Of a stretch of 64,000 nucleotides of DNA, positions 26,452 to 44,343 are shown piece after piece. Numbering within the stretch: position 1 is the first letter of the stretch; the number at the start of each line of letters is the position of its first letter. The notes below the pieces were generated by a model. That model ran no database searches and was not told the origin of the DNA. It worked only from the letters and a program-made list of their open reading frames with translations. The stretch covers positions 2,070,178 to 2,134,177 of the forward strand of contig GG704596.1 in assembly GCA_000161775.1 (NCBI GenBank), read 5' to 3'. This DNA comes from Ruegeria lacuscaerulensis ITI-1157. GTDB lineage: Bacteria; Pseudomonadota; Alphaproteobacteria; Rhodobacterales; Rhodobacteraceae. A program made the translations under genes and the position numbers.

Positions 26452-27822
26452 TTATTCCGCCGGTACGCTGTGCGCATCCGACTGGTCGCGCGCAGCGTCG
26501 ATCAGCGCACGCCGGGCCAGGGCATAATTGTCCTCGGCGCCTCCGCGCTTGGCCCGCCGATCGTCCAGAATGCGCTCGACCGTGTCGAGCCGCCCCGCGC
26601 GCAGGCCGGAATCGATGGTGATGCGTTCGAAGACGTCGCGTTGCGCGTGGCTGCCGCCCGCCAGCTGCATGCTGTTGCGCGCGGCCAGCAGATGGTCGAA
26701 GGCGCGAGCATGGTCGCCGTCTCCGAACGCCTCGAGCCCCTTGGCCGCCGCCAGGCCGGGATCGGCCATGCGCCTTGCCGTGTCGGTCTTGGGGGTCTGG
26801 GCATCCTTGTGAATGCGCCCCAGCAGTTTCGCCGTGGCATCGGCGCGGCTGTCTCCGGTGAGGGCCAGCAGATAGTGCAGATCGGCGAAGATCAGGCATC
26901 CGTCCTCGGTGCGCGCCGCGCTCAGATCGGCCAGTTCTTCCCAACGGGACCCGACATCGACGCCCTCCAGTTCGAGCCGCGACAGCAGCGACGTCGCGTT
27001 CGAGATGTCACGGTAGTCATCCGTTTTGTCCTTGCGGATCTCGTGGTCGTAGAGCGCGAACACCTGATCGACCTGACCCAGATCCAGATGCATCAGCGCC
27101 TTGTGCCACCAGACGTGATAGCGGAAATTGTTGCAATGTGCCCAGGCCGCCTCGCGCCCCGCGAACCAGTCCAGACCAGCCTTGGCGTTGCCGGTCATCT
27201 CGTGCACATGCGCCACCGCGTGCAGGCCCCAGGCGTCGTCCGACACCATCCACAGCGCCTGCCGGCCTGCGATCTCGGCCTTGTCATAGTCGCCGGTTTC
27301 CTCGAGCGCGAAGGAATGGCAGCCCAGCAGGTAGCCCCGGCCCGGATGATCGGGCGCGTAGGCGGGCAGCACCCGCTCGATCGAGCGGCGCATACCGGCC
27401 GCGTCGCCCAGAACGAACCGGGTGGCGTGGCCAAGCTTCATGGCCAGCGAATCCTCGGGGTGGGCGCGCAGGATGGTCTCGAACGTCTGGACCGCGCGCG
27501 ACGGATGACCCTCCAGCCAGTGATTCAGGGCGTCCAGATACAGCGCCTCGCGCGGGGTGATCGGCTGCTGATCGGCGGCGGCGCGGGCGTTTGCGGCGGC
27601 CTCTCGCGCAACGGCCGTCATCTCGCGCCGGCCCAACAGCACCATGAACAGCCCCTTGACCGCATGGCCCAGCGCAAAACCCGGCTCCAGTTCCAGCACT
27701 CTGCCCAGATGCTGGGGTGTGACGGCCGCGTGGGCCAGGAAACCAAGCAGCACACCGTTCCAGGCCTCGGCCGCAGCCGGGTCGGTCAGGGTGTTCATCT
27801 GTCCAAAAAGGTCTTGTTTCAT
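26452..27822 (-). CDS. TPR repeat protein, TTC38-like
   Basis: A 456-residue soluble helical-repeat protein resembling the bacterial TTC38 family, recognisable from AWGLHAVAHVHEMTG, HVWWHKALMHLDLGQ and the repeated pattern of paired helices. The HAVAHVHEMTG and CNNFRYHVWWHKA elements are conserved in the family, whose function is unknown. Start at 27822 (MKQDLFGQM); an alternative Met at 27798 is possible. It is first in a minus-strand run TTC38-opgC-opgG-opgH, although a glucan role for it is only positional. Confidence 0.65.
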   Translation of the reverse strand: MKQDLFGQMNTLTDPAAAEAWNGVLLGFLAHAAVTPQHLGRVLELEPGFALGHAVKGLFMVLLGRREMTAVAREAAANARAAADQQPITPREALYLDALNHWLEGHPSRAVQTFETILRAHPEDSLAMKLGHATRFVLGDAAGMRRSIERVLPAYAPDHPGRGYLLGCHSFALEETGDYDKAEIAGRQALWMVSDDAWGLHAVAHVHEMTGNAKAGLDWFAGREAAWAHCNNFRYHVWWHKALMHLDLGQVDQVFALYDHEIRKDKTDDYRDISNATSLLSRLELEGVDVGSRWEELADLSAARTEDGCLIFADLHYLLALTGDSRADATAKLLGRIHKDAQTPKTDTARRMADPGLAAAKGLEAFGDGDHARAFDHLLAARNSMQLAGGSHAQRDVFERITIDSGLRAGRLDTVERILDDRRAKRGGAEDNYALARRALIDAARDQSDAHSVPAE

Positions 27823-28121
27823 GCTTGGGTCCAATCCGGTTGCGCAAAGTGACACCCATGGGCTTAGCAGAGTGTTCGGGTGCGACGTACCAGTATTGGG
27901 GCTGCTCTCGAATTGGTGAAAGTCCGTGTGCGGCAAACGCGAAAAAATCCGCCTGTTCAGGCAGATGTTTCAGCAACTTGCCGCCGAAGCCAGCACAAGT
28001 GTTTCAGGTATCGGTTGCCGCGTTCCGGGATCGGCGGCAGGGGGGGAAGATCCGCGATTGCGTTTTCGGCTTCCTGCCGCCACAGTCTGACGGGTCGAAA
28101 AGCCGAACCCGGAGAAGCCGA
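27823..28121. other. divergent intergenic region
   Basis: This 299-bp gap lies between the divergent TPR and inositol-monophosphatase genes. The only structure noted is GCCTG-TT-CAGGC at 27951-27962, a 5-bp inverted repeat. A GGAG ribosome site for the plus-strand gene is at about 28111-28114. No gene was found. Confidence 0.5.
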
Positions 28122-28913
28122 ATGACCGATAATCTGGAACGCAGGGAGTTTGCCGTCGCAGTCTGCAGTCAGGCCGGTGAACTGGCAGCCCGGTATTTTG
28201 CGGATCGTGACGCGCTTGTCGTTGACCGGAAGGGCGCGCAGGATTGGGTCAGCGAAGCCGACCGGAATGTCGAGACTTTCATTCGCGACAGGATCGCCGA
28301 GGCATGGCCCGAGGATGGCATCGTGGGCGAGGAGCATGGCCGCAAGTCAGGGACCAGCGGGTTTGACTGGGTGATCGACCCGATCGACGGGACCACGAAT
28401 TTCGTCAATGGGATTCCGGCCTGGACGGTCGTTCTGGCGGGTGTCTCGGGCGGGCGGACGCAGGTTGGCGTGATCCATGATCCGAATGTGGACGAAACCT
28501 ATGTTGCCCTGCGCGGCGGTGGCGCCACGTTGAATGACGCCCCGATGCGGGTCGCTGCGGGGGTTGCGTTGAATTCGGGCACGGTGGCCGTCGGCTACTC
28601 GAACCGGATCGAGGCGCGCCATGTGCTGCCGATCGTGGCGGACCTGATTGCGCGCGGGGCGATGTTTCATCGCAATGCCAGTGGGGCCTTGTCTTTGGCC
28701 TATGTCGCGGCGGGGCGGTTGCTGGGCTATGTCGAGGAACACATGAACGCCTGGGATTGTCTGGCCGGGCAATTGATGATCGCCGAGGCCGGTGGCTGCA
28801 TCGAGGATCAGGACGCCGATACAATGATCCGTCAGGGCGGCCGGGTGATCGCTGGAACGCCCGACGTGTTCGACACCCTGCGCGAGATTGCCGAGCGGGT
28901 ATGGGCGGATTGA
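28122..28913 (+). CDS. inositol monophosphatase family phosphatase
   Basis: A 263-residue Mg2+-dependent sugar-phosphate phosphatase. The family metal and catalytic motifs are all visible: GEEHG, DPIDGTTNFVNGIP and NAWDCLAGQLMIAEAGG. The ATG at 28122 follows GGAG by seven bases. The family includes inositol-1-phosphatase (SuhB), histidinol phosphatase (HisN) and CysQ-type enzymes, and the sequence alone does not decide between them. It converges on the histidine phosphatase gene, with 4 bp between stops. Confidence 0.88.
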   Translation: MTDNLERREFAVAVCSQAGELAARYFADRDALVVDRKGAQDWVSEADRNVETFIRDRIAEAWPEDGIVGEEHGRKSGTSGFDWVIDPIDGTTNFVNGIPAWTVVLAGVSGGRTQVGVIHDPNVDETYVALRGGGATLNDAPMRVAAGVALNSGTVAVGYSNRIEARHVLPIVADLIARGAMFHRNASGALSLAYVAAGRLLGYVEEHMNAWDCLAGQLMIAEAGGCIEDQDADTMIRQGGRVIAGTPDVFDTLREIAERVWAD

Positions 28914-28917
28914 CCCT

Positions 28918-29484
28918 CTAGCCGATCGCGCGCCACCCGGTTCGCGGTCGCAAGGTGGCCAGATCCGCATGCCAGAAATGCCCTTGGAACGGTTGGTCGA
29001 ATTGTCGGTCGATGGGCCGATGCGACAAGGCGCACCACAACAGCGTACCGACGGCCCCATGTGTCACGATCGCAAGATCCGCCCCGTCATGAGTCGCGAC
29101 GATCCGGGAAACGGCACCGCGTATCCGGGCCTGAGCGTCGCGGGCCGTTTCCCATCCACAAAAGCTATGATCGGGCTGAGCAAAGAACGCGTCCGCTGCC
29201 GCCTCGAACTTGTTTTTGGGCAGGTATCCTGTTGCGCTGCGGTCATTTTCGCCCAGGGCTGCGTCGCAGTCCACTGGCAAGGCGCGGGTCGCCGCAAGGA
29301 TCGCGGCGGTCTCGCGGGCCTTTCTTTCGGCGCTGGTCCAGATCTGCGACACGTCGGCCATTGCGTCGCTGGCCGCGAAAGTCCGAGCCCTGTGGCGGCC
29401 CTGTTCATGCAGGGGCCAGTCCACCACCGGGATGTCGGGATCGACGGTGACTTCGGGATGCGTGATCACCAGAAGGACCGACAT
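28918..29484 (-). CDS. histidine phosphatase superfamily protein with altered RHG motif
   Basis: A 188-residue protein of the phosphoglycerate-mutase-like fold. The nucleophile His is residue 9, but the usual RHG/RHGE motif reads THPE (LLVITHPEV). The later motifs are intact: TSAERKARETA and the second His in LAIVTHGAVGTLLW. Loss of the phosphate-binding Arg beside the catalytic His suggests altered substrate or weak activity. Its ATG directly abuts the stop of the ABC ATPase gene, so it is the last gene of that operon and its substrate is probably linked to what the transporter imports. Confidence 0.75.
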   Translation of the reverse strand: MSVLLVITHPEVTVDPDIPVVDWPLHEQGRHRARTFAASDAMADVSQIWTSAERKARETAAILAATRALPVDCDAALGENDRSATGYLPKNKFEAAADAFFAQPDHSFCGWETARDAQARIRGAVSRIVATHDGADLAIVTHGAVGTLLWCALSHRPIDRQFDQPFQGHFWHADLATLRPRTGWRAIG

Positions 29485-30558
29485 TTATTCCTCGGGCAGC
29501 AGAACCGGGCCTTTTTCGGCGAAGGCCATGCGTATCTGGGTGCCCGGCGCCAGAGGAGCGTCCACGTCTTCGTGCACCGCGAAGACTTGCCCGAAATTGC
29601 CGGTCAGCGTGTATTCCATCCGCACACCCACATAGGTCGCCTTGGCGACGGTCGCCGGAATTCCCCGTTCCTTGCCGATCACCAGGCGCGACGGGCGGAC
29701 GGCAATAGTGGCCGGGCCTGCGGGCAGGCCGCGTGACGGCAGCGTGTGGCGATAGCCTTCGATCTCGATCGTGGCGGTATCGCCCTCGACGGCCACGATC
29801 TGACAGTCCAGCAGGTTGGCCTCGCCGATGAAATCGGCCACGAAGCGGTCGTTGGGGGCGTCATACAGCTGCCGGGGCGTTCCGATCTGGGCAATGGCGG
29901 CGTTGCGCATCACCACGATCTCGTCCGATACGGCCAGCGCCTCTTCCTGGTCATGGGTGACATAGACGACCGTCAGGCCGAGATCCTGCTGGATGGCGCG
30001 GATGTCCTCGCGCACCTGGCGGCGCAGTTTGGCATCCAGGTTCGACAGCGGCTCGTCGAACAACAGCACCTGCGGTTCCAGCACCAGCGCACGCGCCACG
30101 GCGACCCGCTGCTGCTGCCCCCCCGACAGTTCCGACGGCAACCGCGCGTCAAACCCCTTGAGGCCCACCAGATCCAGCCCTTGCAACGCGCGGCTGCGGG
30201 CCTCGTCCTTGCCGAAGCCCGAAAAGGTCAGGCCGTACATGACGTTTTCCAGTACGCTCATATGCGGGAACAGGGCATAGGACTGGAACACCATCGACAC
30301 GTCGCGATCGGTGGCCGGCAGCTTGGTCACGTCGCGGTCGCCGATCAGGATGCGGCCCGAACTGGCCATCTCGAGCCCCGCGATCATGCGCAGGGTCGTG
30401 GTCTTGCCGCAGCCTGACGGACCCAGCAACGTGACCAGCTTGCCCGCCTCGACATGCAGGTCGATGGCGTCGACGGCGACGACATCCTTTCCGAAAACCT
30501 TGGACACGCGTTCAAAGCGGACCGGGGCGGCCTTCGAGCCGATGTGAGTGTCGGTCAT
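29485..30558 (-). CDS. ABC transporter ATP-binding protein (AfuC/FbpC/PotA-like)
   Basis: A 357-residue ABC ATPase with Walker A GPSGCGKT at 46-53, Q-loop FQSYALFPHMSV, signature ELSGGQQQR, Walker B LLFDEPLSNLDAKL, the switch His in VTHDQEEAL, and a C-terminal TOBE-type domain from about residue 240. It energises the fused permease encoded just upstream (4-bp overlap). Ligand specificity is set by the binding protein, not this subunit. Confidence 0.9.
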   Translation of the reverse strand: MTDTHIGSKAAPVRFERVSKVFGKDVVAVDAIDLHVEAGKLVTLLGPSGCGKTTTLRMIAGLEMASSGRILIGDRDVTKLPATDRDVSMVFQSYALFPHMSVLENVMYGLTFSGFGKDEARSRALQGLDLVGLKGFDARLPSELSGGQQQRVAVARALVLEPQVLLFDEPLSNLDAKLRRQVREDIRAIQQDLGLTVVYVTHDQEEALAVSDEIVVMRNAAIAQIGTPRQLYDAPNDRFVADFIGEANLLDCQIVAVEGDTATIEIEGYRHTLPSRGLPAGPATIAVRPSRLVIGKERGIPATVAKATYVGVRMEYTLTGNFGQVFAVHEDVDAPLAPGTQIRMAFAEKGPVLLPEE

Positions 30559-32771
30559 GGCGATGTCTCCGTTTCGTGCACAGTGCGCCGCCCGATGCGG
30601 ACCCGGCCCACCAGAAGTTGCAGCAACCCGACCGCCGCCAGCATCACGAAGATCAGGGTCGTGGAATAGGCGATGGCCAGGCCGTAATCGTTGTTCTCGA
30701 CCCGCCCGATGATATAGCTGGTGGCCATGTCATATTCGGCGCTGACCAGAAAGATCACGGCCGAGATGGCGGTCATCGCGCGGACGAAGCTGTAGACCAG
30801 CGCGGCCAGGATCGCCGGCCGCAGCAGCGGCAGGATGATGCGCCGGAAAGTCTGCCAGGAATTCGCCCCCAGCGTCAGCGAGGATTCATCCAGGCTGCGG
30901 TCCAGCTGTGACATGCTGGCGATGCCGGCGCGCACGCCCACGGGCATGTTGCGGAAGATGAAGCTGACCACCAGGATGACGCCAGTTCCCGTGATCTCGA
31001 TCGGGGGCACGTTGAATGCCAGAATATAGCTGACGCCGATCACCGTGCCGGGAATGGCAAAGGACAGCATGGTGCCGAATTCGAAGGCGTTCTTGCCCGC
31101 GAAATTCTGCCGGGTCAGAAGATAGGCCGTCACCAGACCCACGGCTGCGGTCAGCGGGGCGGCGATGGCGGCGATGGTGATGGTGGTCCAGAAACTGTCC
31201 CAGGCGGCGCCGGTCCAGCGGATGCCTTCCGCATCCAGCCGCACCGAGAAGGCGGTGACGTAGTGCTTGAAAGTCAGCGTGTTGTTGACCCCCCACAGCT
31301 CGACCACGCTGCCATAGGCGATCATCGCATAGATCACCACCGTGAACAGCGCCCAGCCCAGCGCGATCACCGCCACCGGGATCGACAGGCCCTTGGGCAT
31401 CAGCGGGTGCACACCGGAATCGCCCTTGCCGGTCACGGTGGTATAGCTTTTCTTGCCCAGCCAGGCGCGCTGCGCGTAGAAGGCCGACAGGGTAAAGAAC
31501 AAAAGCACCATCGCCAGCACCGCCGCGCGGCCCTGATCGTACTGGGCGCCGACGATGGCAAAGAAGATCTCGGTCGACAGCACGTCGAAATTGCCGCCCA
31601 GAACCAGCGGGTTGCCGAAATCGGCCATGCTCTCGATGAAGCCCAGCAGAAAGGCGTTGGCCAGGCCCGGTCGCATCAAGGGCAGCGAGACGGTTCGGAA
31701 GGTCTGCCACCGGTTGGCCCGCAAGGTCTGGGCGGCCTCTTCCATCGAGGGCGAGACGCCCTCGACCACGCCGATCAGCACCAGGAAGGCGATGGGCGTG
31801 AAGGCAAGGGTCTGGGCGATCAGGATGCCGGGCATCCCGTACAGCCAGCGCGTGGGCTGGGTGCCGAACAGCTCGGCGATGAATCGCGTTACCGATCCGG
31901 ACAGGCCGAACAGCAGGATCAGCGCCAGGCCGATGACGAAGGGCGGGGTGATGATCGGCAGCACCGTCAGGGCGCGCAGCGCCCGTTTGTAGCGAAAGCC
32001 CGACCGGGTGACGACCAGCGCGAAACACAGGCCCAACGCGGTTGTGAGCAGCCCGACCAGAACCGCCAGCACCAGCGAATTCCAGGCCGCACCGCATTTC
32101 GCGCCCCACAGGCACCCCAGCCCCCACAGCCGGTCGTCGAAGAATTTCGAAAAGAAGACCGCCACCGAATAGGCCCCGTCCTCGGTCACGAAGGCGGCAA
32201 ACAGCATTCTGGCGATCGGGAAGAAGACAAAGGCGGTGACGATGGTGATGACGCCGCCGATGGCGCTGACGACGAACACGTCTCCGTTCACGGCGCCGCG
32301 CGCGGCGATCCCCTGGGTCAGCAGAAACAGAAAGCTCGAGGCGCAGATCATCGCGCCATAGCCCATGCCGAACTGCCGGTCGCCCAGCTCTCCGAACAGG
32401 GCGGTCAGCCAGTCGAAATTGAACCCGCGGATGCCAATGCCGAACCCTTGCGCGATCAGCCAGGCAAAGCCGAACGCCCCCGACAGGATCAAAATGCGGG
32501 CGTGCAGCGGATCAGATTTCGGCCGGCCCAGCGCCAGCAGCGGCAAGGCCAGCGCAAGGACCATCGGCGCCAGCCAAAGCTTCTTGCCCTGCGCAAGCAG
32601 AAAGGCCGCGGGCGCATAGTCGTCGTCAAACGGATAGCCATCGACCAGCCAGTGGAACGACCAGAAGCCGTCCTCGACCATGTACCAGGGCAGCAGGCAA
32701 TAGCCGACCCACCCGGCGGCGATCCAGAAGATCAGCACCGAATGGGCCGTTTTTGTGGTGGAACGTTTCAT
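30555..32771 (-). CDS. ABC transporter permease, two fused domains (AfuB-like)
   Basis: A 738-residue membrane protein holding two permease domains, each with an EAA-type loop: EEAAQTLRANRWQTFRTVSL near the middle and ESSLTLGANSWQTFRRIILP near the end. About 200 N-terminal residues with several extra hydrophobic segments precede the first domain. FbpB iron permeases are near 500 residues, so this longer layout is closer to AfuB-type (sugar-phosphate) permeases. It abuts the binding-protein gene with no gap and overlaps the ATPase gene. Confidence 0.85.
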   Translation of the reverse strand: MKRSTTKTAHSVLIFWIAAGWVGYCLLPWYMVEDGFWSFHWLVDGYPFDDDYAPAAFLLAQGKKLWLAPMVLALALPLLALGRPKSDPLHARILILSGAFGFAWLIAQGFGIGIRGFNFDWLTALFGELGDRQFGMGYGAMICASSFLFLLTQGIAARGAVNGDVFVVSAIGGVITIVTAFVFFPIARMLFAAFVTEDGAYSVAVFFSKFFDDRLWGLGCLWGAKCGAAWNSLVLAVLVGLLTTALGLCFALVVTRSGFRYKRALRALTVLPIITPPFVIGLALILLFGLSGSVTRFIAELFGTQPTRWLYGMPGILIAQTLAFTPIAFLVLIGVVEGVSPSMEEAAQTLRANRWQTFRTVSLPLMRPGLANAFLLGFIESMADFGNPLVLGGNFDVLSTEIFFAIVGAQYDQGRAAVLAMVLLFFTLSAFYAQRAWLGKKSYTTVTGKGDSGVHPLMPKGLSIPVAVIALGWALFTVVIYAMIAYGSVVELWGVNNTLTFKHYVTAFSVRLDAEGIRWTGAAWDSFWTTITIAAIAAPLTAAVGLVTAYLLTRQNFAGKNAFEFGTMLSFAIPGTVIGVSYILAFNVPPIEITGTGVILVVSFIFRNMPVGVRAGIASMSQLDRSLDESSLTLGANSWQTFRRIILPLLRPAILAALVYSFVRAMTAISAVIFLVSAEYDMATSYIIGRVENNDYGLAIAYSTTLIFVMLAAVGLLQLLVGRVRIGRRTVHETETSP

Positions 32772-33797
32772 TTACTGCGGCAGAACCGAAACCTCTTCGT
32801 CCCATTTCTGCAGCAGGCGTTTGCGTTCGTCGGACGAGCCGTATTTCTTGAAGTCATAGTCGATCAGCTTGATCTGGCTCATGTCCGGCGCGCTGTCCGA
32901 GGTCTTGGCCGCCTTGTTCGACGGTACCTGGAAGGCGTTGACCTCGAGCGCCAGGTTCTGCGCCTCGGCGCTCAGGGCCCAGTCATAGAATTTCTTGGCC
33001 TCTTCGACATTGCGGGCGCCGTCGATGATCGACATCGACCCGATCTCGTATCCGGTGCCCTCGCACGGGGCGACCACCTTGATGGGAAAGCCTGCCACGG
33101 CCTGTTTCACCGCGTCATGCATGAACACGATGCCGATGGTCGTCTCGCCGCGGGCCGCCGCCTTGATCGGGGCCGAGCCCGACTTGGTGTACTGGTTGAT
33201 GTTCTTGTGCAGGCCCTTCATGAACTCGAACCCTTCGTCCTCGCCGAAGATCTGAACCATCGAGGCCAGCGTCGTGTAGGCGGTCCCTGACGAGTTCGGG
33301 TTCGCCATCTGGATATGGCCCTTGTATTCAGGCTTCAGCAGATCCTTCCAGCAGGACGGCTCGGGCAGGTTGTTGGCTGCCAGCAACTCGGTGTTGTAGC
33401 CATAGCCGAGCGCGCCCGAATAGATCCCGATCGTCCGGTTCCCGGCGCTTTCGGCCTGCGAGATCGCCCAGTCATGCAGTTGATCGCGCATGGGCGAAAT
33501 GTATTCCATCGTCAGGCCTTCTTCGGCCGCTTGCAGATGCGGATCACCCGTACCGCCCCACCACACGTCGCCCTTGGGGTTGGACGCTTCGGCGCGGATC
33601 TGGGCAAAGGTCTCGCCCGAGGATTTGCGGGTCATGTTGACATCGATGCCGGTGGCGTCCTCGAAGCTGCGCGCCATCAGCTGGCACCAGTCCTCTTGCG
33701 CCGAGCAGTACAGGGTCAGCTTGTCCGCGTAGGACGCCGAGACCGAGGTGGTCAGGGCCACGAGTGAACCTGCGAATGTCAGTGTGAGTCGTTTCAT
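32772..33797 (-). CDS. periplasmic ABC substrate-binding protein, AfuA/FbpA family
   Basis: A 341-residue exported binding protein (signal peptide to about residue 24, SASYA). After the signal comes KLTLYCSAQEDWCQLMARSF, typical of the FbpA/AfuA class, with the ligand-binding region NPKGDVWWGGTGDPHL. The adjacent Tyr-Tyr pair used by ferric-binding FbpA proteins is absent. Instead a His-Asp pair (227-228, VFMHDAV) is followed 24 residues later by Glu251; from memory, AfuA hexose-phosphate binders use a His-Asp/Glu set with that spacing. A phosphorylated organic ligand is therefore favoured over iron. Automatic annotation would probably say iron(III). Confidence 0.7.
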   Translation of the reverse strand: MKRLTLTFAGSLVALTTSVSASYADKLTLYCSAQEDWCQLMARSFEDATGIDVNMTRKSSGETFAQIRAEASNPKGDVWWGGTGDPHLQAAEEGLTMEYISPMRDQLHDWAISQAESAGNRTIGIYSGALGYGYNTELLAANNLPEPSCWKDLLKPEYKGHIQMANPNSSGTAYTTLASMVQIFGEDEGFEFMKGLHKNINQYTKSGSAPIKAAARGETTIGIVFMHDAVKQAVAGFPIKVVAPCEGTGYEIGSMSIIDGARNVEEAKKFYDWALSAEAQNLALEVNAFQVPSNKAAKTSDSAPDMSQIKLIDYDFKKYGSSDERKRLLQKWDEEVSVLPQ

Positions 33798-33890
33798 GTC
33801 TTTCCTCCCAGTTGCATGTCGGTGGCCGGGTCGGCCGCCTCGTACTCGTCCTCACACGGTCTTGCGCCGCTTTGATTTATTCCGTTCCCG

Positions 33891-35552
33891 TCAGGATGCG
33901 CCTCCGATCTTGCGGGGGTGGGCCAGCCGGCTACGCAGCAGATCGCCGGTTTCCTCGGCAATCGGATAGGCCACGAAGGCCAGCGCCGCATTCACCTGCT
34001 TGAGCAGGCGCAGTGTCTCCTGGTGGATGTTGGTGGTTTCGATGCTGGCGGATGCCCCGTTTTGCAGTCGCTTCAGATGGCGTTCCTGCAGTTTCTGTTC
34101 TTCGATGCGAATGCGATCCTTCTCGGCCACAAGCTGACGTGCCGCCTCGGCGTCTCCGGTGGTCAGGACACTCAGCGCCAGTTGACCGTTCGTCACGACC
34201 TGATCGTGAAACTGCTCGATGTCGTCCAACCCTTCTTTCGAGAAGGTCACTGCCTCGTCCGCCAATTTCCGCGCCAGCCCGACAAGGTTCACGGCAATCC
34301 GGTCGGCGGCTTCTTCCAGGTTGTTGGCCATAGCCACGATGCCAAGCGATTTCTTTTCCTGTTCCGGCGTCAGGTCGTTTTCACCCATGCGCGAGATGTA
34401 GATCTTGATGGCGAAATGCATCCGATCAACCTCGTCCTCGCGCAGCTGGATGGTTCGGGCCAGATCTGGGTCCCAGTTGCGGAACAGGTGAATGACCGGC
34501 ACCAGCATGGCCTGTACGGTTTCCGCCATGCGCAGCAATTCCCGTTGCGCGCAGGCCAGTGCCAGCGGCGGGTGATCCAGCGCGCTGGAATCCAGCGCCG
34601 AAACGCTTTCGGGCTCGGTTGGCGAATGTCGGGGCAGAACCGCATCGACCAATCGCACCAGCGGGCCGGTCAGCGGCAGAGCCAGCACAAGTAGTGCGAT
34701 GTTCAGCAGAATGTGCAGCGCGACGACTTGCTGCCCGGGCACCGGGCCGAGCACCCCCATCTGAACGACGCCCGCAAGCAGCAGAGCGAGTGCGATCAAG
34801 GTGACGCAGGCCCGCGCGGCAAGGTTGGACAGGACGACCAGACGGGCCGGGCGCTCCTGCCCCCACAACAGCGCCACCGGAATTGCCGCCCCGCCCAGGT
34901 TTGCCCCGATCACCAGCGCGGCCGCCACCGGACTTGCGACCAGCCCCGAGGCGGCGAAGGTTGCAAAGGTCAGCACTGCGGCCAGGCTGGAATGCATCAC
35001 CCACGCCAGAACGGCGCCGATGACATAGGCGCTGAGCAGGTCGTTCTGGAAATAGGTGGCGATGCTTTGCACGATCGGATTTGATCCGATTGAAACTGTT
35101 GCGTCGCGGATCATGCCCAACGACATAAGGACCAGCGCAAAGCCGATCACGATCCGACCGATTTGCTTGGCCTTGCGCCGGCGCGCCTTGAGGAAGGTCA
35201 CGACGCCGGCCAGCAGGGCAAAGGGGATTACCGCCTGAACCGGCAGAAACAGGACCTGCGCCATCAGCGCCGATCCGACCTCGGCCCCCAGGATCACGGC
35301 CAGCGCGGATTGCGGCGCCAGCATCCCCGACACCGCGAACCCCGCCCCGATCAGGGCTACCGCTGTTGCGCTTTGCATGAGCATGGCAGTCAGCCCTCCG
35401 CCCAGGGCGGCCGTCAGGCTCCGGTCTGACAGGACTTTCAGCCCGCGCTTGAGTTCCGGCAGAAAGGCCCGTTCGACGCCGGTGCGGATCAGCCGGACCG
35501 ACCAGAGCAGCAGCGCCACCGCGGCCGCCAGATGCGTTGCCATCACGATCAT
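33891..35552 (-). CDS. Na+/phosphate cotransporter family protein with PhoU-like domain
   Basis: A 553-residue NptA/PNaS-family carrier. Residues 1-310 contain about eight hydrophobic segments and the paired signature motifs LMQSATAVALIGAG (58-71) and VMHSSLAAVLTF. Residues about 330-540 form a helical PhoU-like cytoplasmic domain with coiled-coil character. The family imports inorganic phosphate with sodium. It is 93 bp upstream of the AfuABC-like genes on the same strand and divergent from a DeoR regulator, which places phosphate handling at this locus. Confidence 0.88.
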   Translation of the reverse strand: MIVMATHLAAAVALLLWSVRLIRTGVERAFLPELKRGLKVLSDRSLTAALGGGLTAMLMQSATAVALIGAGFAVSGMLAPQSALAVILGAEVGSALMAQVLFLPVQAVIPFALLAGVVTFLKARRRKAKQIGRIVIGFALVLMSLGMIRDATVSIGSNPIVQSIATYFQNDLLSAYVIGAVLAWVMHSSLAAVLTFATFAASGLVASPVAAALVIGANLGGAAIPVALLWGQERPARLVVLSNLAARACVTLIALALLLAGVVQMGVLGPVPGQQVVALHILLNIALLVLALPLTGPLVRLVDAVLPRHSPTEPESVSALDSSALDHPPLALACAQRELLRMAETVQAMLVPVIHLFRNWDPDLARTIQLREDEVDRMHFAIKIYISRMGENDLTPEQEKKSLGIVAMANNLEEAADRIAVNLVGLARKLADEAVTFSKEGLDDIEQFHDQVVTNGQLALSVLTTGDAEAARQLVAEKDRIRIEEQKLQERHLKRLQNGASASIETTNIHQETLRLLKQVNAALAFVAYPIAEETGDLLRSRLAHPRKIGGAS

Positions 35553-35627
35553 GCAGGCAGGACCGATTTCTTGGTGCGTTGGTACATCATTCCTCAGTTC
35601 GCAGAAGTGGTATTGGATTTGGTAATT

Positions 35628-35667
35628 CTCAACACTCAGTTGAGGTCAATGCAACAAAATAATTGCA
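35628..35667. promoter_or_regulatory. inverted repeats in the nptA-like/deoR divergent promoter region
   Basis: Two candidate operators lie in the AT-rich 170-bp gap between divergent starts at 35552 and 35723: CTCAAC-N5-GTTGAG (35628-35644) and TGCAA-N8-TTGCA (35650-35667). Either could bind the DeoR protein encoded alongside. No Pho box was recognised. Confidence 0.35.
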
Positions 35668-35722
35668 AAAATGCCCGAAACGCCACAACGTGACTCGGGC
35701 ATGGGACGAGTCGGATCGTGAG

Positions 35723-36538
35723 ATGTCGAAGACCAAGACACGAAGCAAACATGCCGAGAAGGCAGCCGGCCGGATCAAGAAAGCCGAGCGGCGGCGGCAG
35801 ATCCTGCTCGAACTGAAGTTGCGCCCGCATGTCCGGATCAGTGACCTTGCCCGCAGTTTCAACGTGTCGACCGAAACCGTCAGGCGGGATTTCGACGCCT
35901 TGGCCCAAGACGGTCTGGTGGCGCGCGCGCATGGCGGGGCCTCGGCGGCGGCACAGGGGCACTATCCCAGTCTCGACGAGCGCACCGCCGACCGCGCCGC
36001 CGAGCGCGAGAGGATCGGCGGAAAGGCGTCGGAACTGGTGAATGACGGCGATACCGTGATGATCGACTCGGGTTCGACGACGATCCAGCTGGCCCGTGCG
36101 TTGGCGGTGAATGGCACGCGGTGCACGGTCATCACCAACTCGATACCCGTGGCAACGACACTGGGGGACGGCGCCGCCGACGTGATCCTGTGCCCGGGGG
36201 AATACCTGGCCACTGAATCCGCCGTGATCGGCGCAGACACGCTCGAATACCTGTCACGATTCAATGTGGATCGATGCATGATCGGCGCGTCGGGGTTGTC
36301 CGAAGAGGGGCCCTCGGAGGCGATCAGCGGTTTCGCTGCGGTCAAGCGCGCGATGCTGCAGCGCGCGGCCAACCGGCATCTTCTGATAGATGCCCAGAAA
36401 TACGGCGCCAGGGGTCTGGTCCGGGCGGGCACCCTGTCTGACCTGGACAGTATCGTGGTCGATGCCGCACCCGATGGGACATTGCGCGCGGCGCTCGAGG
36501 CGTCGAAGGTCGCCGTGATCGTCGCGGATACGGGATAA
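35723..36538 (+). CDS. DeoR/GlpR-family transcriptional regulator
   Basis: A 271-residue repressor-type protein. A basic, Lys-rich N-terminus precedes the DeoR helix-turn-helix at about 38-60 (RISDLARSFNVSTETVRRDF). The C-terminal sensor domain shows GDTVMIDSGSTTIQLARAL, VITNSIPVA and IGASGLSEEG, the ribose-5-phosphate-isomerase-like fold that binds phosphorylated sugars. It lies 50 bp upstream of phnD and probably controls the phn-HAD genes and possibly the divergent Na/Pi gene. The ATG at 35723 is chosen for length; an upstream in-frame start at 35663 is possible. Confidence 0.88.
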   Translation: MSKTKTRSKHAEKAAGRIKKAERRRQILLELKLRPHVRISDLARSFNVSTETVRRDFDALAQDGLVARAHGGASAAAQGHYPSLDERTADRAAERERIGGKASELVNDGDTVMIDSGSTTIQLARALAVNGTRCTVITNSIPVATTLGDGAADVILCPGEYLATESAVIGADTLEYLSRFNVDRCMIGASGLSEEGPSEAISGFAAVKRAMLQRAANRHLLIDAQKYGARGLVRAGTLSDLDSIVVDAAPDGTLRAALEASKVAVIVADTG

Positions 36539-36588
36539 GAATAATGCTCGCGGTGGAGGAGCCGCATTTCAAGGGAGGACTAAATAAC

Positions 36589-37563
36589 ATGAAATCAGAT
36601 TTCAAACTGCTCATCTCCGCTTCGGCGGTCGCAGTGATGTCATGGGCCACAGGCGCTGCGGCCCAAGACTGCCCGCGCGGAGATCTTGACGAACGGTTCT
36701 GCGACGTGGATGGCGATCTGGTCGCGGATATCCCGACGGACGAAAGCCAGTGGCTTGATCCCGACCCGTTGATTTTTGCCTATACACCGGTCGAGGATCC
36801 GGCCGTCTACAAGACAGCATGGTCCGATTTCATCGACTATCTCAGCGAGAAGACCGGCAAGGATGTCGTGTTTTTCCCAGTCCAGTCGAACGCCGCCCAG
36901 ATCGAGGCGATGCGTTCGGGGCGTCTGCACATCTCGGGGTTCAACACCGGGTCGAACCCGCTTGCCGTGAACTGCGCGGGCTTCCGGCCCTTTACGATCA
37001 TGGCGTCGGCGGATGGCAATTTCGGCTATGAAATGGAGATCATCACCTATCCCGGTTCCGGCATCGAAAAGGTCGAGGATATCCGCGGAAAACAGCTGGC
37101 CTTTACCTCGCCGACGTCGAATTCGGGCTTCAAGGCGCCCTCGGCGATCCTGAAGGCGGATTACGACATGATCCCCGAACGCGACTTCGAGCCGGTGTTT
37201 TCGGGCAAGCATGACAATTCGATCCTCGGTGTCGCCAACAAGGACTATATGGCTGCCTCGATCGCCAACTCGGTGCTGCACCGGATGATCGACCGCGATG
37301 TCATCGAGCCCGAACAGGTGGTTTCGATCTACAAGTCGCAGACCTTCCCGACCACGGGGTTCGGCGTCGTCTACAACCTCAAGCCCGAGCTGCAGGATCA
37401 GATCCGCGATGCCTTCTTCAGCTTCGAGTGGGAGGGCACGACCCTGGAAGAGGAATTCTCGAAGTCCAACGAGGCTCAGTTCATCGAGATGAACTACAAG
37501 GATTTCTGGGAGGTCATCCGCAAGATCGATGCCGCCAACGGCGTCAGCTACGCCTGTCAGTAA
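36589..37563 (+). CDS. phnD: PhnD-like periplasmic binding protein of a phosphonate-type ABC transporter
   Basis: A 324-residue exported protein with a signal peptide ending near residue 24 (TGAAAQ). PhnD-family features include PLIFAYTPVEDP near the N-terminus of the mature protein, FFPVQSNAAQIEAMRSGRLH, and FTSPTSNSGFKAPSAILK with the Ser/Thr-rich loop that binds the phosphonate or phosphate group. The mature N-terminus carries an unusual acidic, Cys-containing extension (CPRGDLDERFCDVDGD). An AGGGAGG ribosome site precedes ATG 36589. The ligand may be a phosphonate, phosphite or phosphate ester. Confidence 0.85.
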   Translation: MKSDFKLLISASAVAVMSWATGAAAQDCPRGDLDERFCDVDGDLVADIPTDESQWLDPDPLIFAYTPVEDPAVYKTAWSDFIDYLSEKTGKDVVFFPVQSNAAQIEAMRSGRLHISGFNTGSNPLAVNCAGFRPFTIMASADGNFGYEMEIITYPGSGIEKVEDIRGKQLAFTSPTSNSGFKAPSAILKADYDMIPERDFEPVFSGKHDNSILGVANKDYMAASIANSVLHRMIDRDVIEPEQVVSIYKSQTFPTTGFGVVYNLKPELQDQIRDAFFSFEWEGTTLEEEFSKSNEAQFIEMNYKDFWEVIRKIDAANGVSYACQ

Positions 37564-37573
37564 ACCGTCAACA

Positions 37574-37606
37574 GCCGGGCAGATACTTGTGAGGGATCTG
37601 CCCGGC
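37574..37606 (+). other. strong intercistronic hairpin between phnD and phnC
   Basis: A perfect 11-bp stem (37574-37584 with 37596-37606) with an 11-base loop lies 10 bp after the phnD stop. There is no following T run, so it is more like an mRNA-stabilising element that raises binding-protein output over the membrane components than a full terminator. Confidence 0.7.
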
Positions 37607-37625
37607 CGGCCATCAAGGGCTTCAA

Positions 37626-38423
37626 ATGCTGCAACTCGAAAAACTGACCAAGACCTACAAGACCGGCGACAAGGCCTTGCAGGGGATCGATCTCGAGGTT
37701 CCCTCGGGCCAGGTTCTGGCCTTGATCGGTCCGTCCGGCGCTGGCAAATCGACGATGATCCGGTGCATCAACCGGCTGGTCGAGCCGACCGGCGGAGCGG
37801 CCATTCTGGACGGCGTGAACCTGACCCGGCTGGGCAGCGGAGCATTGCGGCGGGCGCGGCGGGAAATGGGCATGATCTTTCAGGAATATGCCCTGGTCGA
37901 GCGCCTGACGGTGATGGAGAACGTGCTGTCCGGGCGGCTGGGCTATGTGGGGTTCTGGCGCAGCTTTCTGCGCCGCTATCCGCAATCCGACGTGGACGAA
38001 GCCTTTCGCCTGCTGGATCGCGTGGGCCTTCTGCACATGGCCGACAAGCGCGCCGACGAACTGTCGGGTGGTCAGCGTCAGCGGGTCGGGATCTGCCGAG
38101 CCCTGATCCAGCAGCCAAAGCTGTTGTTGGTCGATGAACCCACGGCATCGCTGGACCCCAAGACCAGCCGCCAGATCATGCGGCTGATCACCGAGTTGTG
38201 CCGCGAACGCGGGCTGGCCGCGATCATCAACATCCATGATGTTGCGCTGGCCCAGATGTTCGTTCCGCGCATCGTCGGGCTGCGGTTCGGAGAAATCGTG
38301 TTCGACGGACCGCCAGATGCGCTGACCTCCGAAAAGCTGACGGAAATCTACGGCGAGGAGGATTGGGAGGCGACCATCGAGAAGGTCGAGGGCGAAGACA
38401 CAGACATCGAGGCCGCGGAATGA
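37626..38423 (+). CDS. phnC: phosphonate-type ABC transporter ATP-binding protein
   Basis: A 265-residue ABC ATPase with Walker [10 protein letters not shown] at 35-43, signature [20 protein letters not shown], Walker [17 protein letters not shown] and switch His in [12 protein letters not shown]. The [28 protein letters not shown] segment after the Q-loop is typical of PhnC. Its stop overlaps the ATG of the first permease gene. Confidence 0.9.
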
Positions 38424-39235
38424 GCCATCGTGAACTGGATGACATGCTGGGCAAAGGCTGGCGCAAGCCGCATTTCATCGCCAATCCCGCGTTACGCTGG
38501 GGCCTGATCGTCGGGTTTGCGGCTTACCTGGTGGCGGCGGTGATGACGATCGAGGTGGACTGGGCCCGGGTCTATGCCGGGCTGGACCGGGGGGGGCAGT
38601 TCATCCTGTCCTTCACCCGCCCCGATTTCGTGACCCGCGCCGGAGACATCTGGAGCGGACTTCTGGAAAGCATCGTGATGACGGTGGCGGCTTCGGTCGT
38701 CGGCATCCTGATTTCGATTCCCATCGGCCTTGGCGCCGCGCGCAACATCGCACCGCTGCCCGTCTACGTCATCTGCCGCGGCATCGTGGCCATCAGCCGC
38801 GCCTTGCAGGAAATCATCGTGGCGATCCTGCTGGTCGCGATTTTCGGCTTTGGCCCGCTGGCCGGTTTCCTGACCCTCTCCTTTGCGACCATCGGTTTCC
38901 TGTCAAAGCTTCTGGCCGAGGACATCGAGTCGATGGACAAGGTTCAGGCCGAGGCGATCCGGGCCTCGGGGGCGCGGTGGATGCAATGGATCAACTACGG
39001 CGTGCAGCCGCAGGTGATGCCGCGTCTGGTCGGCCTGTCAATGTATCGTATCGACATCAATTTCCGCGAAAGCGCGATCCTGGGGCTGGTGGGGGCCGGT
39101 GGCATCGGGGCGACGCTGAACACTGCCTTCGATCGATATGAATACGACACGGCCGCCGCGATCCTGATTTTGATCATCGGCATCGTGATGGCTCTGGAAT
39201 ACCTGTCGGGAATCATTCGCGCGAGGGTTCAGTGA
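38420..39235 (+). CDS. phnE: phosphonate-type ABC transporter permease (1)
   Basis: A 271-residue membrane protein with about six helices and the PhnE permease loop [19 protein letters not shown] followed by [19 protein letters not shown]. The start at 38420 overlaps the phnC stop (ATGA). It likely forms a heterodimeric pore with the second permease. Confidence 0.9.
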
Positions 39236-40050
39236 TGCCGGTATTGGAAAAGGAAGGCACACAGGTCTGGCGCCGCCGGACAGCGTCCGAGACACTGATC
39301 CGTTGGTTCGGCTGGCTGATCGGCGTCGCGGTCTTCATGCTGTGCTGGCAGAGGATATCCGAGGCGACCACCTGGTTCTTCGTCTGGGATGCCCCGCGCA
39401 TCGCCAGTGACATCTGGAACCGGGCAACCCCGCCGCGCTGGGAATACATCACTCAGTTGGGGCGCCCGATCTGGGATACGCTGAACATCGCCACGCTGGG
39501 AACGCTGATCGCCCTGTGCCTGGCCGTGCCGGTGGCTTTTCTGGCAGCCCGCAACACCACGCCTTCGGCCCTGTTCGTTCGTCCCTTTGCCTTGCTGATC
39601 ATCGTGGCGACCCGGTCGATCAACTCGCTGATCTGGGCGCTGTTGCTGATTGCGATCATCGGTCCGGGCGTATTTGCCGGCGTAATCGCCATCGCAATCC
39701 GTTCGATCGGCTTCTGCGCCAAGCTTCTGTATGAGGCGATCGAAGAGATCGACCATGGCCAGGTCGAGGCGATCACGGCCACCGGCGCCTCCCGTTGGCA
39801 GGTGATGGCCTATGGGATCGTGCCGCAGATCCTGCCGGCCTTCGCGGGAATTGCCGTGTTCCGCTGGGACATCAACATCCGTGAGTCGACGGTTCTGGGC
39901 CTTGTCGGGGCCGGGGGGGTCGGTCTTCAACTTTCTGCGTCGCTCAACGTTCTGGCCTGGCCGCAGGTCAGCCTGATCCTCATCGTCATCCTCGTGGCCG
40001 TTGTGATCAGCGAATGGGTTTCGGCCAAGGTCCGCGGAGCGATCATTTGA
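39235..40050 (+). CDS. phnE: phosphonate-type ABC transporter permease (2)
   Basis: A 271-residue paralogue of the preceding permease, with EEIDHGQVEAITATGASRWQ and [19 protein letters not shown]. Its ATG overlaps the last base of the preceding stop (TGATG). It is the last transporter gene before the HAD hydrolase. Confidence 0.9.
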   Translation: MPVLEKEGTQVWRRRTASETLIRWFGWLIGVAVFMLCWQRISEATTWFFVWDAPRIASDIWNRATPPRWEYITQLGRPIWDTLNIATLGTLIALCLAVPVAFLAARNTTPSALFVRPFALLIIVATRSINSLIWALLLIAIIGPGVFAGVIAIAIRSIGFCAKLLYEAIEEIDHGQVEAITATGASRWQVMAYGIVPQILPAFAGIAVFRWDINIRESTVLGLVGAGGVGLQLSASLNVLAWPQVSLILIVILVAVVISEWVSAKVRGAII

Positions 40051-40952
40051 TCCCCCTGACCGCCGAGGCCGCGTTCAGGGGCTATGAGGCCGTGCGCCAT
40101 CGCTTGCCGGATGCAAGTGGCCCGACCCGCACGCCGCGACACTGCGATACGCTTGAGGATATCGCGGACGATTTCGATGTCTTTCTGCTGGATGCGTTCG
40201 GCGTTCTGAACATCGGCGAGACGGCGATTCCGGAAACGCCCGAACGTGTCGAGCGGTTGCGGGCGGCGGGCAAGCGGGTGCTGGTGGTGTCGAATGCGGC
40301 AAGCCTGCCGCACGCGTCGCTGGTCGCAAAGTACCAACGGTTGGGCTATGCGTTTGCACCGCAGGAGGTGGTCACCAGCCGCGCGACCCTGGTGGCCGCC
40401 ATGAAAGACCGGCGAGGATTGCATTGGGGGCTCATGGCCTCCCGCGGGGCGGGCCTTCACGATCTGGGTGATCTCGAGGTCAGCTATCTGGAAGACGATC
40501 CTGCAATCTATGATGCGGTGGATGGCTTTCTGATGATCGGCAGTTCCGGTTGGACCGAGCACAGGCAGGCGCTGCTTGAGGCCGCATTGAATCGGCGGCG
40601 GCGCCCGGTCCTGGTGGGAAACCCTGACATCGTCGCACCGCGCGAAACCGGGTTCAGCGCGGAGCCGGGCTATTTTGCCCATCGTCTGGCCGACCGGACC
40701 GGGGTCACGGTGGAATTCTTCGGCAAACCTTTCGCCAATATCTATGATCTTGCGTTTGCGCGTCTGGGCGAAGTTGACCGGTCTCGGGTCGTCATGGTCG
40801 GAGACAGCCTGCATACTGACATCCTTGGTGCACATGCTGCCGGCGTGGCTTCGGCCTTGATCACGGGCTATGGATTCTTTGCCGGCCAGGACGCCGCGCG
40901 CGCCGTGGCCGCTGCGGGCATCGCCCCCGACTATCTGGTTCGGCGACCCTGA
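40047..40952 (+). CDS. HAD superfamily class IIA hydrolase (TIGR01459-like)
   Basis: A 301-residue HAD phosphatase. The start is taken as TTG at 40047, overlapping the phnE stop (TTGA), because it begins right at the family's N-terminus (LIPLTAEAAFRGYEAV). Motif I reads FLLDAFGVLN: the nucleophile Asp is present, but the usual second Asp two residues later is Phe. Motif II is VLVVSNAAS and the C-terminal metal motif VVMVGDSLHTDILGAHAAG is intact. Translational coupling to the transporter suggests it acts on the imported phospho-compound, but the changed motif I leaves activity uncertain. Confidence 0.8.
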   Translation: MIPLTAEAAFRGYEAVRHRLPDASGPTRTPRHCDTLEDIADDFDVFLLDAFGVLNIGETAIPETPERVERLRAAGKRVLVVSNAASLPHASLVAKYQRLGYAFAPQEVVTSRATLVAAMKDRRGLHWGLMASRGAGLHDLGDLEVSYLEDDPAIYDAVDGFLMIGSSGWTEHRQALLEAALNRRRRPVLVGNPDIVAPRETGFSAEPGYFAHRLADRTGVTVEFFGKPFANIYDLAFARLGEVDRSRVVMVGDSLHTDILGAHAAGVASALITGYGFFAGQDAARAVAAAGIAPDYLVRRP

Positions 40953-41011: not shown

Positions 41012-42199
41012 TCAGTCCTCGAAGGGATCGTCCGCATCCAGAACGGCCTGGGTATCCGCCCCAAAGGTTGGAGGTGCCGCACGATAGGTCACCGGCGTGC
41101 GCGACAGTTTCAGCGGGTTCCCGATCAGTTTGACGGGAGCGGGGTCGGCCTGCATGTCGATCTGCATCTGCCGCGCGGCCACCTGATCCGAGGCAAAGAC
41201 CTGATCCAGCGTCTGAACCGGCCCGACGGGCACTTTCAGCGCCTCGAGGCCTTCGATGACGGCCTTGGTCTCCAGCCGCCGAAGCGCGGGCCGCAGAACG
41301 GCGTTCAATGCGTCGCGGTGTTCCAGCCGGGCCGGGTTGGTTGCAAACCGCGCATCATCGGACAACTGATCGAGGTCAAGAAACCCGCAGAAGCGCCGGA
41401 ACTGGCCGTCATTTCCCACGGCCAGAATGACGTGTCCATCGGCGGCTTCATAAACATCGTAGGGCACGATGTTGGGGTGCCCATTGCCGCGCCGCTGCGG
41501 AACCTGGCCCGAGGTCAGATAGTTCACGCCCTCGTTGATCAGCCATGCGATCTGGCTGTCGACCAGTGCGATGTCGATCTGCTGGCCTTCGCCGGTCTGA
41601 TCCCGGTGGCGCAGTGCGGCCAGAATGCCGACGGTCGCGTACATGCCGCACATCACGTCGGCGATGCCCACGCCCACTTTCATCGGGGCTCCGTCCGGCT
41701 CGCCGGTCAGCGACATGATCCCGCCATAGCCCTGCGCCATCAGGTCATAGCCCGGCTTGGCCGCGTTCGGGCCGGTCTGGCCGTAGCCCGAGATCGAACA
41801 GTAGATCAGCCCCGGAAACTCCCGCGAGAGGGTTTCATGGTCCAGCCCGTATTTGGCCAGCCCGCCGGGTTTGAAATTCTCGATGAGGATGTCGGCATGA
41901 GAGGCCAGCCACCGAATCTGTTCCTGCCCCTCTGGCGTGGCGATATCGATGGCGACGGACTTCTTGTTGCGGTTCGCGGCCATGAAATAGGCGCTCAGAT
42001 CGGTCGGGTTGCCATCCGCGTCGGTGACATAGGGCGGCCCCCACTGGCGGGTATCGTCGCCACCGGTCGCCGGGTTTTCCACCTTGATCACGCTGGCGCC
42101 CAGATCGCCCAACAGCTGCGTGCAGGTCGGGCCGGCCAGAATGCGCGACAGATCCAGAACCTTGACGCCCTTCAGCGGCCCGTCAGATGCGGCCATCAT
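41012..42199 (-). CDS. CaiB/BaiF (class III) CoA-transferase
   Basis: A 395-residue family III CoA-transferase moving CoA between organic acids through an aspartyl-CoA thioester. The catalytic Asp is expected at residue 181 (GVGIADVMCGMYATVG). N-terminal LKGVKVLDLSRILAGPTCTQ and the FMAANRNKKSVAID and ENFKPGG segments are typical. It overlaps the upstream TPP-enzyme gene by 17 bp, so the two are translated together. The acid substrate is not evident. Confidence 0.9.
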   Translation of the reverse strand: MMAASDGPLKGVKVLDLSRILAGPTCTQLLGDLGASVIKVENPATGGDDTRQWGPPYVTDADGNPTDLSAYFMAANRNKKSVAIDIATPEGQEQIRWLASHADILIENFKPGGLAKYGLDHETLSREFPGLIYCSISGYGQTGPNAAKPGYDLMAQGYGGIMSLTGEPDGAPMKVGVGIADVMCGMYATVGILAALRHRDQTGEGQQIDIALVDSQIAWLINEGVNYLTSGQVPQRRGNGHPNIVPYDVYEAADGHVILAVGNDGQFRRFCGFLDLDQLSDDARFATNPARLEHRDALNAVLRPALRRLETKAVIEGLEALKVPVGPVQTLDQVFASDQVAARQMQIDMQADPAPVKLIGNPLKLSRTPVTYRAAPPTFGADTQAVLDADDPFED

Positions 42200-43802: not shown

Positions 43803-43881
43803 CGAACAAGCTCCGTAAGTTCCGTTGCGCAGCAGATTGCGGAGGTTCCGGGCCGGCGCAAGCCGCATCACGTCAGTGTGA

Positions 43882-44343
43882 CTATTTGACAGCCAGTTCG
43901 GCGATGACGGCGAATTTGGCGTCCAACTCTGCGGCGATCGCGGGCAAGGCGTCACTGCCTTCGACATACGGGGCAAAAACCAGACTGGGCGTCTTGTAGG
44001 ACAGCGTCGCGGTGCCGTCCTCGTTTTCCGTGACGTACAGGCGGATCGGCGCCTCGATCATCGCGGGCACCGATTGTTCCAGAACCCGCACCGCGTAGTC
44101 GTTGTTGAAGACGCCGATCACACGGTTGCCCGGAATGGTGATGCCGCGGGCGGCGGCGGCCTTGGTCGGCCCGGCTTGCGTGACCACGGCCATCCCGTTT
44201 GCCTTGACCGCTGCGATCGTGTCGGCCACCAGCGCGTCATGGGTCTTGGTCGTCGGGTGGACGGCCCAACCCGGCCGCGGTTCGATATCGGCAGCAAGCG
44301 CGGGCAGCGCCAGCAGGCCGAGGAACAACACAAGATATTTCAT
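43882..44343 (-). CDS. DUF302 family exported protein
   Basis: A 153-residue protein with a Sec signal peptide (cleavage near ALPALAA, residue 18) followed by a DUF302 domain: GMAVVTQAGPTKAAAARGIT and RVIGVFNNDYAVRVLEQSV. A GTG one codon earlier could be the start; GGAG lies just upstream of both. Function of the family is unknown; some members sit near sulfur or metal genes. No obvious operon partner. Confidence 0.75.
   Translation of the reverse strand: MKYLVLFLGLLALPALAADIEPRPGWAVHPTTKTHDALVADTIAAVKANGMAVVTQAGPTKAAAARGITIPGNRVIGVFNNDYAVRVLEQSVPAMIEAPIRLYVTENEDGTATLSYKTPSLVFAPYVEGSDALPAIAAELDAKFAVIAELAVK

Follow-up and report, generated by a model that had tools for sequence, protein, structure and literature searches.

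Two described importers of organophosphates and one described exporter of inorganic phosphate (Pi) are the closest relatives of a locus at positions 28122-40952 of a 64,000-nt stretch (the window) of the Ruegeria lacuscaerulensis ITI-1157 genome. GpxB, a binder of glycerol-1-phosphate and glycerol-3-phosphate (G1P and G3P), was published in December 2025 (PMC12718374) as part of an importer discovered via growth in which G1P was the only source of carbon; the intracellular fate of G1P is not treated in the main text of that paper. In AfuA, H205, D206 and E229 are the essential and S37 and T150 the helpful members of the residue set for glucose-6-phosphate (PMC4546632). YjbB is described as a promoter of Pi export (PMC11389368, PMC11850910), as shown on overexpression according to PMC11850910. 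Relatives of all three are encoded together in the window, and the locus is a real, conserved island of known importer kinds, with one divergent promoter, in which glycerol and sugar phosphates would probably be taken up and used as carbon and Pi exported; its HAD protein is the point of interest.

The PhnD-like binding protein of the right half scored 517 bits against GpxB (PDB 9lf9/9lfb), compared with 91 bits for the runner-up among solved structures, a phosphite binder, and was aligned to GpxB without a gap across 293 residues. All nine GpxB contact residues (T111, G112, Y138, S168, N169, S170, H199, R223 and T247) are kept, and all nine are intact in 57 of the 59 aligned proteins (the window protein counted), the two most distant differing at T247. 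Because all nine contacts are kept, the right importer is assigned to the GpxB kind at residue level and predicted to bind G1P and G3P. The protein lies above the broad phosphate/phosphite/phosphonate model but well below the PhnD equivalog cut-off (TIGR03431, 140.8 of 261.1 bits), and the PhnD amino-group pair Glu177/Asp205 is missing, Arg and Thr standing there as do Arg223/Thr247 in GpxB. The preliminary description of this DNA had noted that no C-P lyase or phosphonatase gene accompanies the transporter, which holds genome-wide: a search of the genome, 99.99% complete, returned no C-P lyase gene (PhnJ, PF06007), and the best matches to phosphonatase (PhnX) and PhnW stayed below their family cut-offs, at 37.5 of 220 and 69.1 of 400.8 bits. 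On these results, a phosphonate catabolism encoded away from the island was rejected.

The binding protein of the left half scored 325 bits against AfuA, 258 against the pyridoxal-phosphate relative (PMC8427247 gives which of the AfuA positions differ in that binder) and at most 48 against ferric and 2-aminoethylphosphonate binders; the cut-off of the 2-aminoethylphosphonate binder phnS2 (TIGR03261) was missed (237.7 of 392.75 bits). All five AfuA residues named above are kept, and they are exact in 29 of 30 proteins of at least 50% identity, the remaining one having Thr for S37; two more distant AfuA paralogues carry FR where HD stands. Given the AfuA score and the kept glucose-6-phosphate residues, this AfuABC-type importer is best read as a predicted carrier of sugar phosphates. 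A gene that shares the name, 'afuA' of Rhodobacter sphaeroides (RSP_2913), is iron-regulated (PMC4176601, PMC4618611).

Automatic annotation would label one system a phosphonate importer and the other an iron importer, since PhnD, PhnC, PhnE and ferric ABC transporter names appear among the NCBIfam matches and the PhnC and PhnE proteins score above their equivalog cut-offs. That labelling is very hard to credit against the PhnD and phnS2 cut-offs missed, the GpxB and AfuA residues present, the low scores of the iron binders, and the lack of PhnJ and of any PhnX or PhnW above cut-off; both importer readings were rejected on the binding-protein cut-offs and ligand residues, and two likely misannotations, phosphonate transporter and ferric-iron transporter, are thereby corrected. 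The relatives of both importers instead support the uptake of phosphorylated organics proposed in the preliminary description.

A different ligand for the left importer is suggested by the adjoining inositol-monophosphatase-family (IMPase) gene, whose product could dephosphorylate an imported inositol phosphate or other polyol phosphate. IMPase lies within 5 genes downstream of the binding-protein gene (afA) in 35 of 48 AfuA-type loci, in 34 of them on the opposite strand; such a ligand would fit the theme of lipid-breakdown products, and the inositol catabolism gene iolE is present in the source genome (411.5 bits). This alternative is nevertheless unlikely in view of the five of five tested glucose-6-phosphate residues kept and of the link between iolE and the importer, which was not significant (iolE in 25 of the 56 importer genomes against 19.0 expected; p = 0.06, two-sided); sugar phosphates are preferred as the ligand.

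Among 295 genomes of the family, GpxB was found in 80, the AfuA-type protein (at least 50% identity) in 56 and both in 28, compared with 15.2 expected (one-sided Fisher 3.9e-5). The gpxB and AfuA-type genes lie less than 15 kb apart in 14 of these 28 genomes, on different contigs in 13 and 874 kb apart in one; the closeness expected by chance, a figure that uses a rough genome size, is far below that observed. From these co-occurrence counts, the grouping of the two importers is not chance. Thirteen of the 14 linked pairs are on opposite strands and one (genome G124, locus L103) on the same strand; order is not fixed, and the AfuABC genes come after gpx in the same direction in L103 and L217. 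The linked arrangement occurs, among others, in R. lacuscaerulensis (L172), Ruegeria conchae (L176), Marivita cryptomonadis (L221), Marivita geojedonensis (L180), Antarctobacter heliothermus (L195) and Maliponia aquimaris (L194), and UgpBAEC joins as a third organophosphate importer in L175, L177, L197, L221 and L069. The importers are unlinked in 66 of the 80 gpxB genomes and 42 of the 56 AfuA-type genomes, although draft contigs may hide some linkage, and the two halves are thus modules that also occur apart. The conservation across relatives that the preliminary description had asked after was accordingly found: the halves co-occur, and co-localise in half of the genomes that hold both. The binders carry the ligand residues of a glycerol-phosphate and of a sugar-phosphate binder, and neither of the two outcomes that would have refuted that description was seen.

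A scan of relatives' contigs retained the best 80 of 594 relatives; this set overlaps the family genome set, and loci are not independent. The gpx loci number 126 after removal of identical GpxB C-termini, near-identical relatives remaining. Flanks were examined for 60 of 83 gpxB matches, and no gpxB of 45% identity was called in 3 of the 60 and 4 of the 80. For the AfuA-type gene, 18 further places of at least 50% identity and 2 distant ones were added, and 20 HAD matches away from gpxB were examined, in one of which the gene caller missed the HAD gene. The gene caller was a simple script based on codon scores; short genes can escape it, which makes absences soft.

The divergent promoter region contains a repeat that resembles a DeoR operator and would serve both halves. 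TGCAACA was present in 22 of 29 distinct DeoR-divergent regions and in 7 of 195 other divergent regions of the same loci (shuffle mean 1.64, maximum 5, 500 shuffles), a count taken in the regions in which the motif was discovered and inflated by kinship among loci; the longer TGCAACAAA was present in 18 of 29 and 0 of 195, respectively. TGCAACA also tracks DeoR, with 31 of 40 gpx loci that have DeoR near and 9 of 87 without it, a longer upstream stretch having been scanned for the former; for TGCAACAAA the counts are 21 of 40 and 0 of 87. The spaced pattern TGCAACAAAA..TTGCA has one exact match in the genome, in the window at 35650-35667. As TGCAACAAAA alone is at chance level in the window (1 found, 1.94 expected, one mismatch allowed), support for the putative operator rests on conservation. 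A structure search with the DeoR protein returned one weak PDB relative only. In some relatives a two-component system (hybrid sensor kinase and OmpR-type regulator) stands beside gpx (L108, L112) or beside AfuABC in a stretch that lacks gpx (L142).

Residues 7-534 of the 553-aa Na/Pi carrier align with Escherichia coli YjbB at 33% identity over 538 alignment positions, in the YjbB-type domain order, Na_Pi_cotrans then PhoU; no PDB relative was found at E 0.01. Of the 126 distinct loci, 33 have a carrier homologue near gpxB; homologues also follow the HAD gene in the ugp operons L149 and L152. By analogy with YjbB, the carrier likely exports Pi. A NUDIX-family gene, absent from the window, stands beside the carrier or DeoR in L065, L066, L076, L081, L088, L090, L091 and others; of the copies compared, two pass the PF00293 cut-off, and for a third, which was called at a shorter length, nothing matched at 1e-5.

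The preliminary description saw the locus as a phosphorus-acquisition block whose carrier balances phosphate. The carrier fits a part in phosphate balance, but its match to YjbB points to export of a surplus, and because YjbB is described as a Pi exporter, carbon use with surplus Pi seems likelier than phosphorus acquisition. An island that serves phosphate starvation, with importers that supply phosphorus and a carrier that brings Pi in, would agree with the phosphorus-containing molecules imported by both systems and with the relief that Pi freed inside the cell would give; some Na_Pi_cotrans family members do import Pi, and the island has a single Pho-box-like site, with 3 mismatches, where gpxB ends (37554-37571). 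Set against this are the end-to-end alignment of the carrier with YjbB, the DeoR regulator encoded on the spot and the conserved repeat that goes with it, the discovery of Gpx on a sole carbon source, and the number of Pho-box-like sites in the window, which is at chance level (3 found, 3.15 expected), so that starvation relief is improbable as the role of the island. Pho-box control was rejected on the same count, the island itself containing one of the three.

Of the 126 distinct gpx loci, 81 have the HAD-IIA gene after gpx. Among the 20 HAD loci examined away from gpxB, 5 belong to gpx-less ugp operons; the other 15 are not in ugp operons, and several are near other ABC importers. Because of this company with gpx and with gpx-less ugp operons, the HAD-IIA protein is the leading candidate for a glycerol-phosphate phosphatase. 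The nucleophile Asp, Ser/Thr, Lys and two metal-binding Asp residues are kept, motifs II, III and IV are present, and the AlphaFold2 model (predicted local distance difference test, pLDDT, 92.1) has a C2-cap HAD fold. Two observations weigh the other way. Motif I reads DAFGVL, so that the second Asp of DxD, the general acid/base in HAD phosphatases (PMC8069645), is replaced by Phe, and in none of 106 homologues with a readable motif is Asp found there, Phe or Tyr standing instead. Two genome genes exceed the cut-off of PF13685 (glycerol-1-phosphate dehydrogenase; 41.1 and 36.5 bits), a family that also matches 13 of 14 control genomes and is therefore non-discriminating. L-2-haloacid dehalogenases likewise have no Asp at the second motif I position, and the protein could quite possibly, if not as the favoured reading, act on another substrate, act very slowly or have a regulatory role; the kept catalytic residues and the association with gpx and ugp operons speak for the phosphatase. 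A second HAD gene with canonical DLDGT follows the DAFGVL gene in L071, L073, L177 and L179, the L177 copy scoring 161 bits against phosphoglycolate phosphatase (cut-off 180).

The histidine-phosphatase-like protein has THP at the position of RHG, the canonical motif of branch 1 histidine phosphatases. Its gene occurs in 5 of 48 AfuA-type loci, with THP in 5 of 5, and since THP is common to these neighbours and to the nearest solved relative, Atu0299 (PDB 2qni), it is judged a clade trait. As catalytic motifs are altered in two of the three phosphatase-like proteins (the HAD and histidine-phosphatase-like ones), we only infer the splitting of organophosphates by these two that had been proposed for the locus.

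In the working proposed here, DeoR would occupy the TGCAACAAAA..TTGCA repeat until released by a phosphorylated substrate, Gpx would import glycerol phosphates and Afu hexose phosphates. The HAD protein would strip phosphate from glycerol phosphate, and would be most needed for G1P because the stereospecific glycerol-3-phosphate route should not take it. Glycerol kinase, which is encoded in the source genome, would then pass glycerol into metabolism, and surplus Pi would exit via the YjbB-type carrier. G1P is the backbone of archaeal lipids. We propose, tentatively, that bacterial G1P use has its missing first enzyme in the HAD-IIA protein, a glycerol-phosphate phosphatase acting without the second Asp, in an island with up to three ABC importers (for archaeal, bacterial and sugar organophosphates), one DeoR switch and a YjbB-type Pi exit, yielding cell carbon and free phosphate in the water. 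For G1P use, whose bacterial importer was reported only in 2025, the locus offers concrete candidates for the enzyme, the regulator, the operator and the route by which phosphate leaves. If the carrier exports, such bacteria would set phosphate free as they feed on organophosphates, a point relevant to the way phosphorus is recycled in sea water.

All genes listed in the preliminary description (Na/Pi carrier, ABC importers, DeoR and three phosphatase-like genes) were confirmed in place, strand and family (Table 1). The left half runs, all on the minus strand, from the carrier through the binding protein, permease and ATPase to the histidine-phosphatase-like gene; the gap between carrier and binding protein is 93 bases and a ribosome-binding-like GGGAGGA precedes the latter, on which grounds the left half is likely one transcript. 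The right half runs on the plus strand from DeoR through gpxB, the ATPase and two permeases to the HAD gene, and one divergent promoter region is common to both halves. Coupled starts, reported earlier for the whole right half, stand for the two permeases and the HAD gene, whose start is most likely TTG 40047, overlapping the stop of the second permease, but 62 bases separate gpxB from the ATPase gene. The gpxB reading frame may begin at 36544; ATG 36590 is preceded by AAGGGAGGA. Scans for sigma-70 promoters (1 vs 2.4) and terminators (11 vs 9.0, sd 3.8) were near shuffle level. Directly after the island, on the minus strand, a CoA-transferase family III gene (41012-42199) stands beside a thiamine-diphosphate enzyme gene (42183-43976), a pair found beside the island in none of the mapped relatives; a 494-aa reading frame at 26452-27936 (about 456 aa as called) had no Pfam/NCBIfam match at E 0.001.

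Table 1. Features of the island, with positions in the window
Feature	Position	Strand	Basis
IMPase (inositol-monophosphatase-family), convergent with AfuABC-type operon	28122-28913	+	PF00459, 175.7 bits
Histidine-phosphatase-superfamily gene, branch 1, THP for RHG	28918-29484	-	PF00300, 75.8 bits
AfuC-type ABC ATPase	29485-30558	-	ABC_tran and TOBE_2
AfuB-type two-domain permease, 738 aa	30555-32771	-	two BPD_transp_1 stretches
AfuA-type binding protein, predicted sugar-phosphate binder	32772-33797	-	score to AfuA (4r72-4r75)
YjbB-type Na/Pi carrier (PhoU domain), likely Pi exporter	33891-35552	-	PF02690 and PF01895
Candidate DeoR operator TGCAACAAAATAATTGCA, divergent promoter region	35650-35667	.	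conservation near DeoR
DeoR/GlpR-family regulator	about 35690-36538	+	DeoRC, 137.1 bits; start uncertain, GTG 35690 or ATG 35723
GpxB-type (PhnD-like) binding protein	36590-37563	+	score to PDB 9lf9/9lfb
GpxA-type ABC ATPase, PhnC family	37626-38423	+	TIGR02315, 323.2 bits, above cut-off
Permease, PhnE family, copy 1	38420-39235	+	TIGR01097, 265.4 bits, above cut-off
Permease, PhnE family, copy 2	39232/39235-40050	+	TIGR01097, 268.7 bits, above cut-off
HAD-IIA protein, candidate glycerol-phosphate phosphatase	40047-40952	+	TIGR01459, 112.7 bits, above cut-off

The preliminary description held the combination to be no described system; its PhnDCEE half does belong to a described kind, that of GpxB, while the island as a whole was not found in the literature searched. 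No report of the importer combination or of a HAD-type G1P phosphatase appeared in that literature, most subscription papers being outside the search, and TIGR01459 appeared in a single paper, a genome annotation. The main text of PMC12718374 contains none of the terms DeoR, phosphatase, hydrolase and Afu. In Ruegeria pomeroyi beside an alga, ugp and phn-type transporter genes are induced (PMC9870897). The phn islands of HIMB59, described among its phosphate islands (PMC10734472), contain C-P lyase, unlike the island in the window. The glycerol-3-phosphate importer UgpBAEC joins gpx in 12 of 126 loci of relatives, and the same HAD family is found in 5 gpx-less ugp loci; it is absent from the window, and the second contig of the source genome carries a UgpB-like gene whose 376.8 bits fall short of the cut-off of 411. 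A UgpBAEC-like operon, with a run of N in its ugpA, was seen on the smaller contig (L256, G000:C2:260000-279900). Compared with the glycerol-phosphate phosphatase Rv1692 (PDB 4I9F/4I9G; 24% identity) and other HAD-IIA enzymes, the window HAD protein differs in having Phe for the second Asp. The carrier resembles YjbB of E. coli and Salmonella in length (553 and 543 aa) and in its end-to-end alignment, but is linked to organophosphate importers, whereas yjbB of E. coli K-12 lies between metH and pepE. As in AfuABC of Actinobacillus pleuropneumoniae (PMC4546632; PDB 4R72-4R75), the left importer consists of binding protein, permease and ATPase and keeps the five residues; unlike it, the operon sits by gpx, IMPase and a YjbB-type carrier, and its ligand is a predicted one. 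The right importer is close to the GpxB importer of Phaeobacter sp. MED193 and Marinobacter (PMC12718374; PDB 9LF9, 9LFB): an ATPase and two permeases come after the binding protein, as named for MED193, to which the window adds a DeoR gene in the same direction, the HAD-IIA gene and, linked to them, an AfuABC-type importer. The Gpx and Afu importers are known kinds, and the island, the candidate operator and the HAD assignment were absent from the papers searched.

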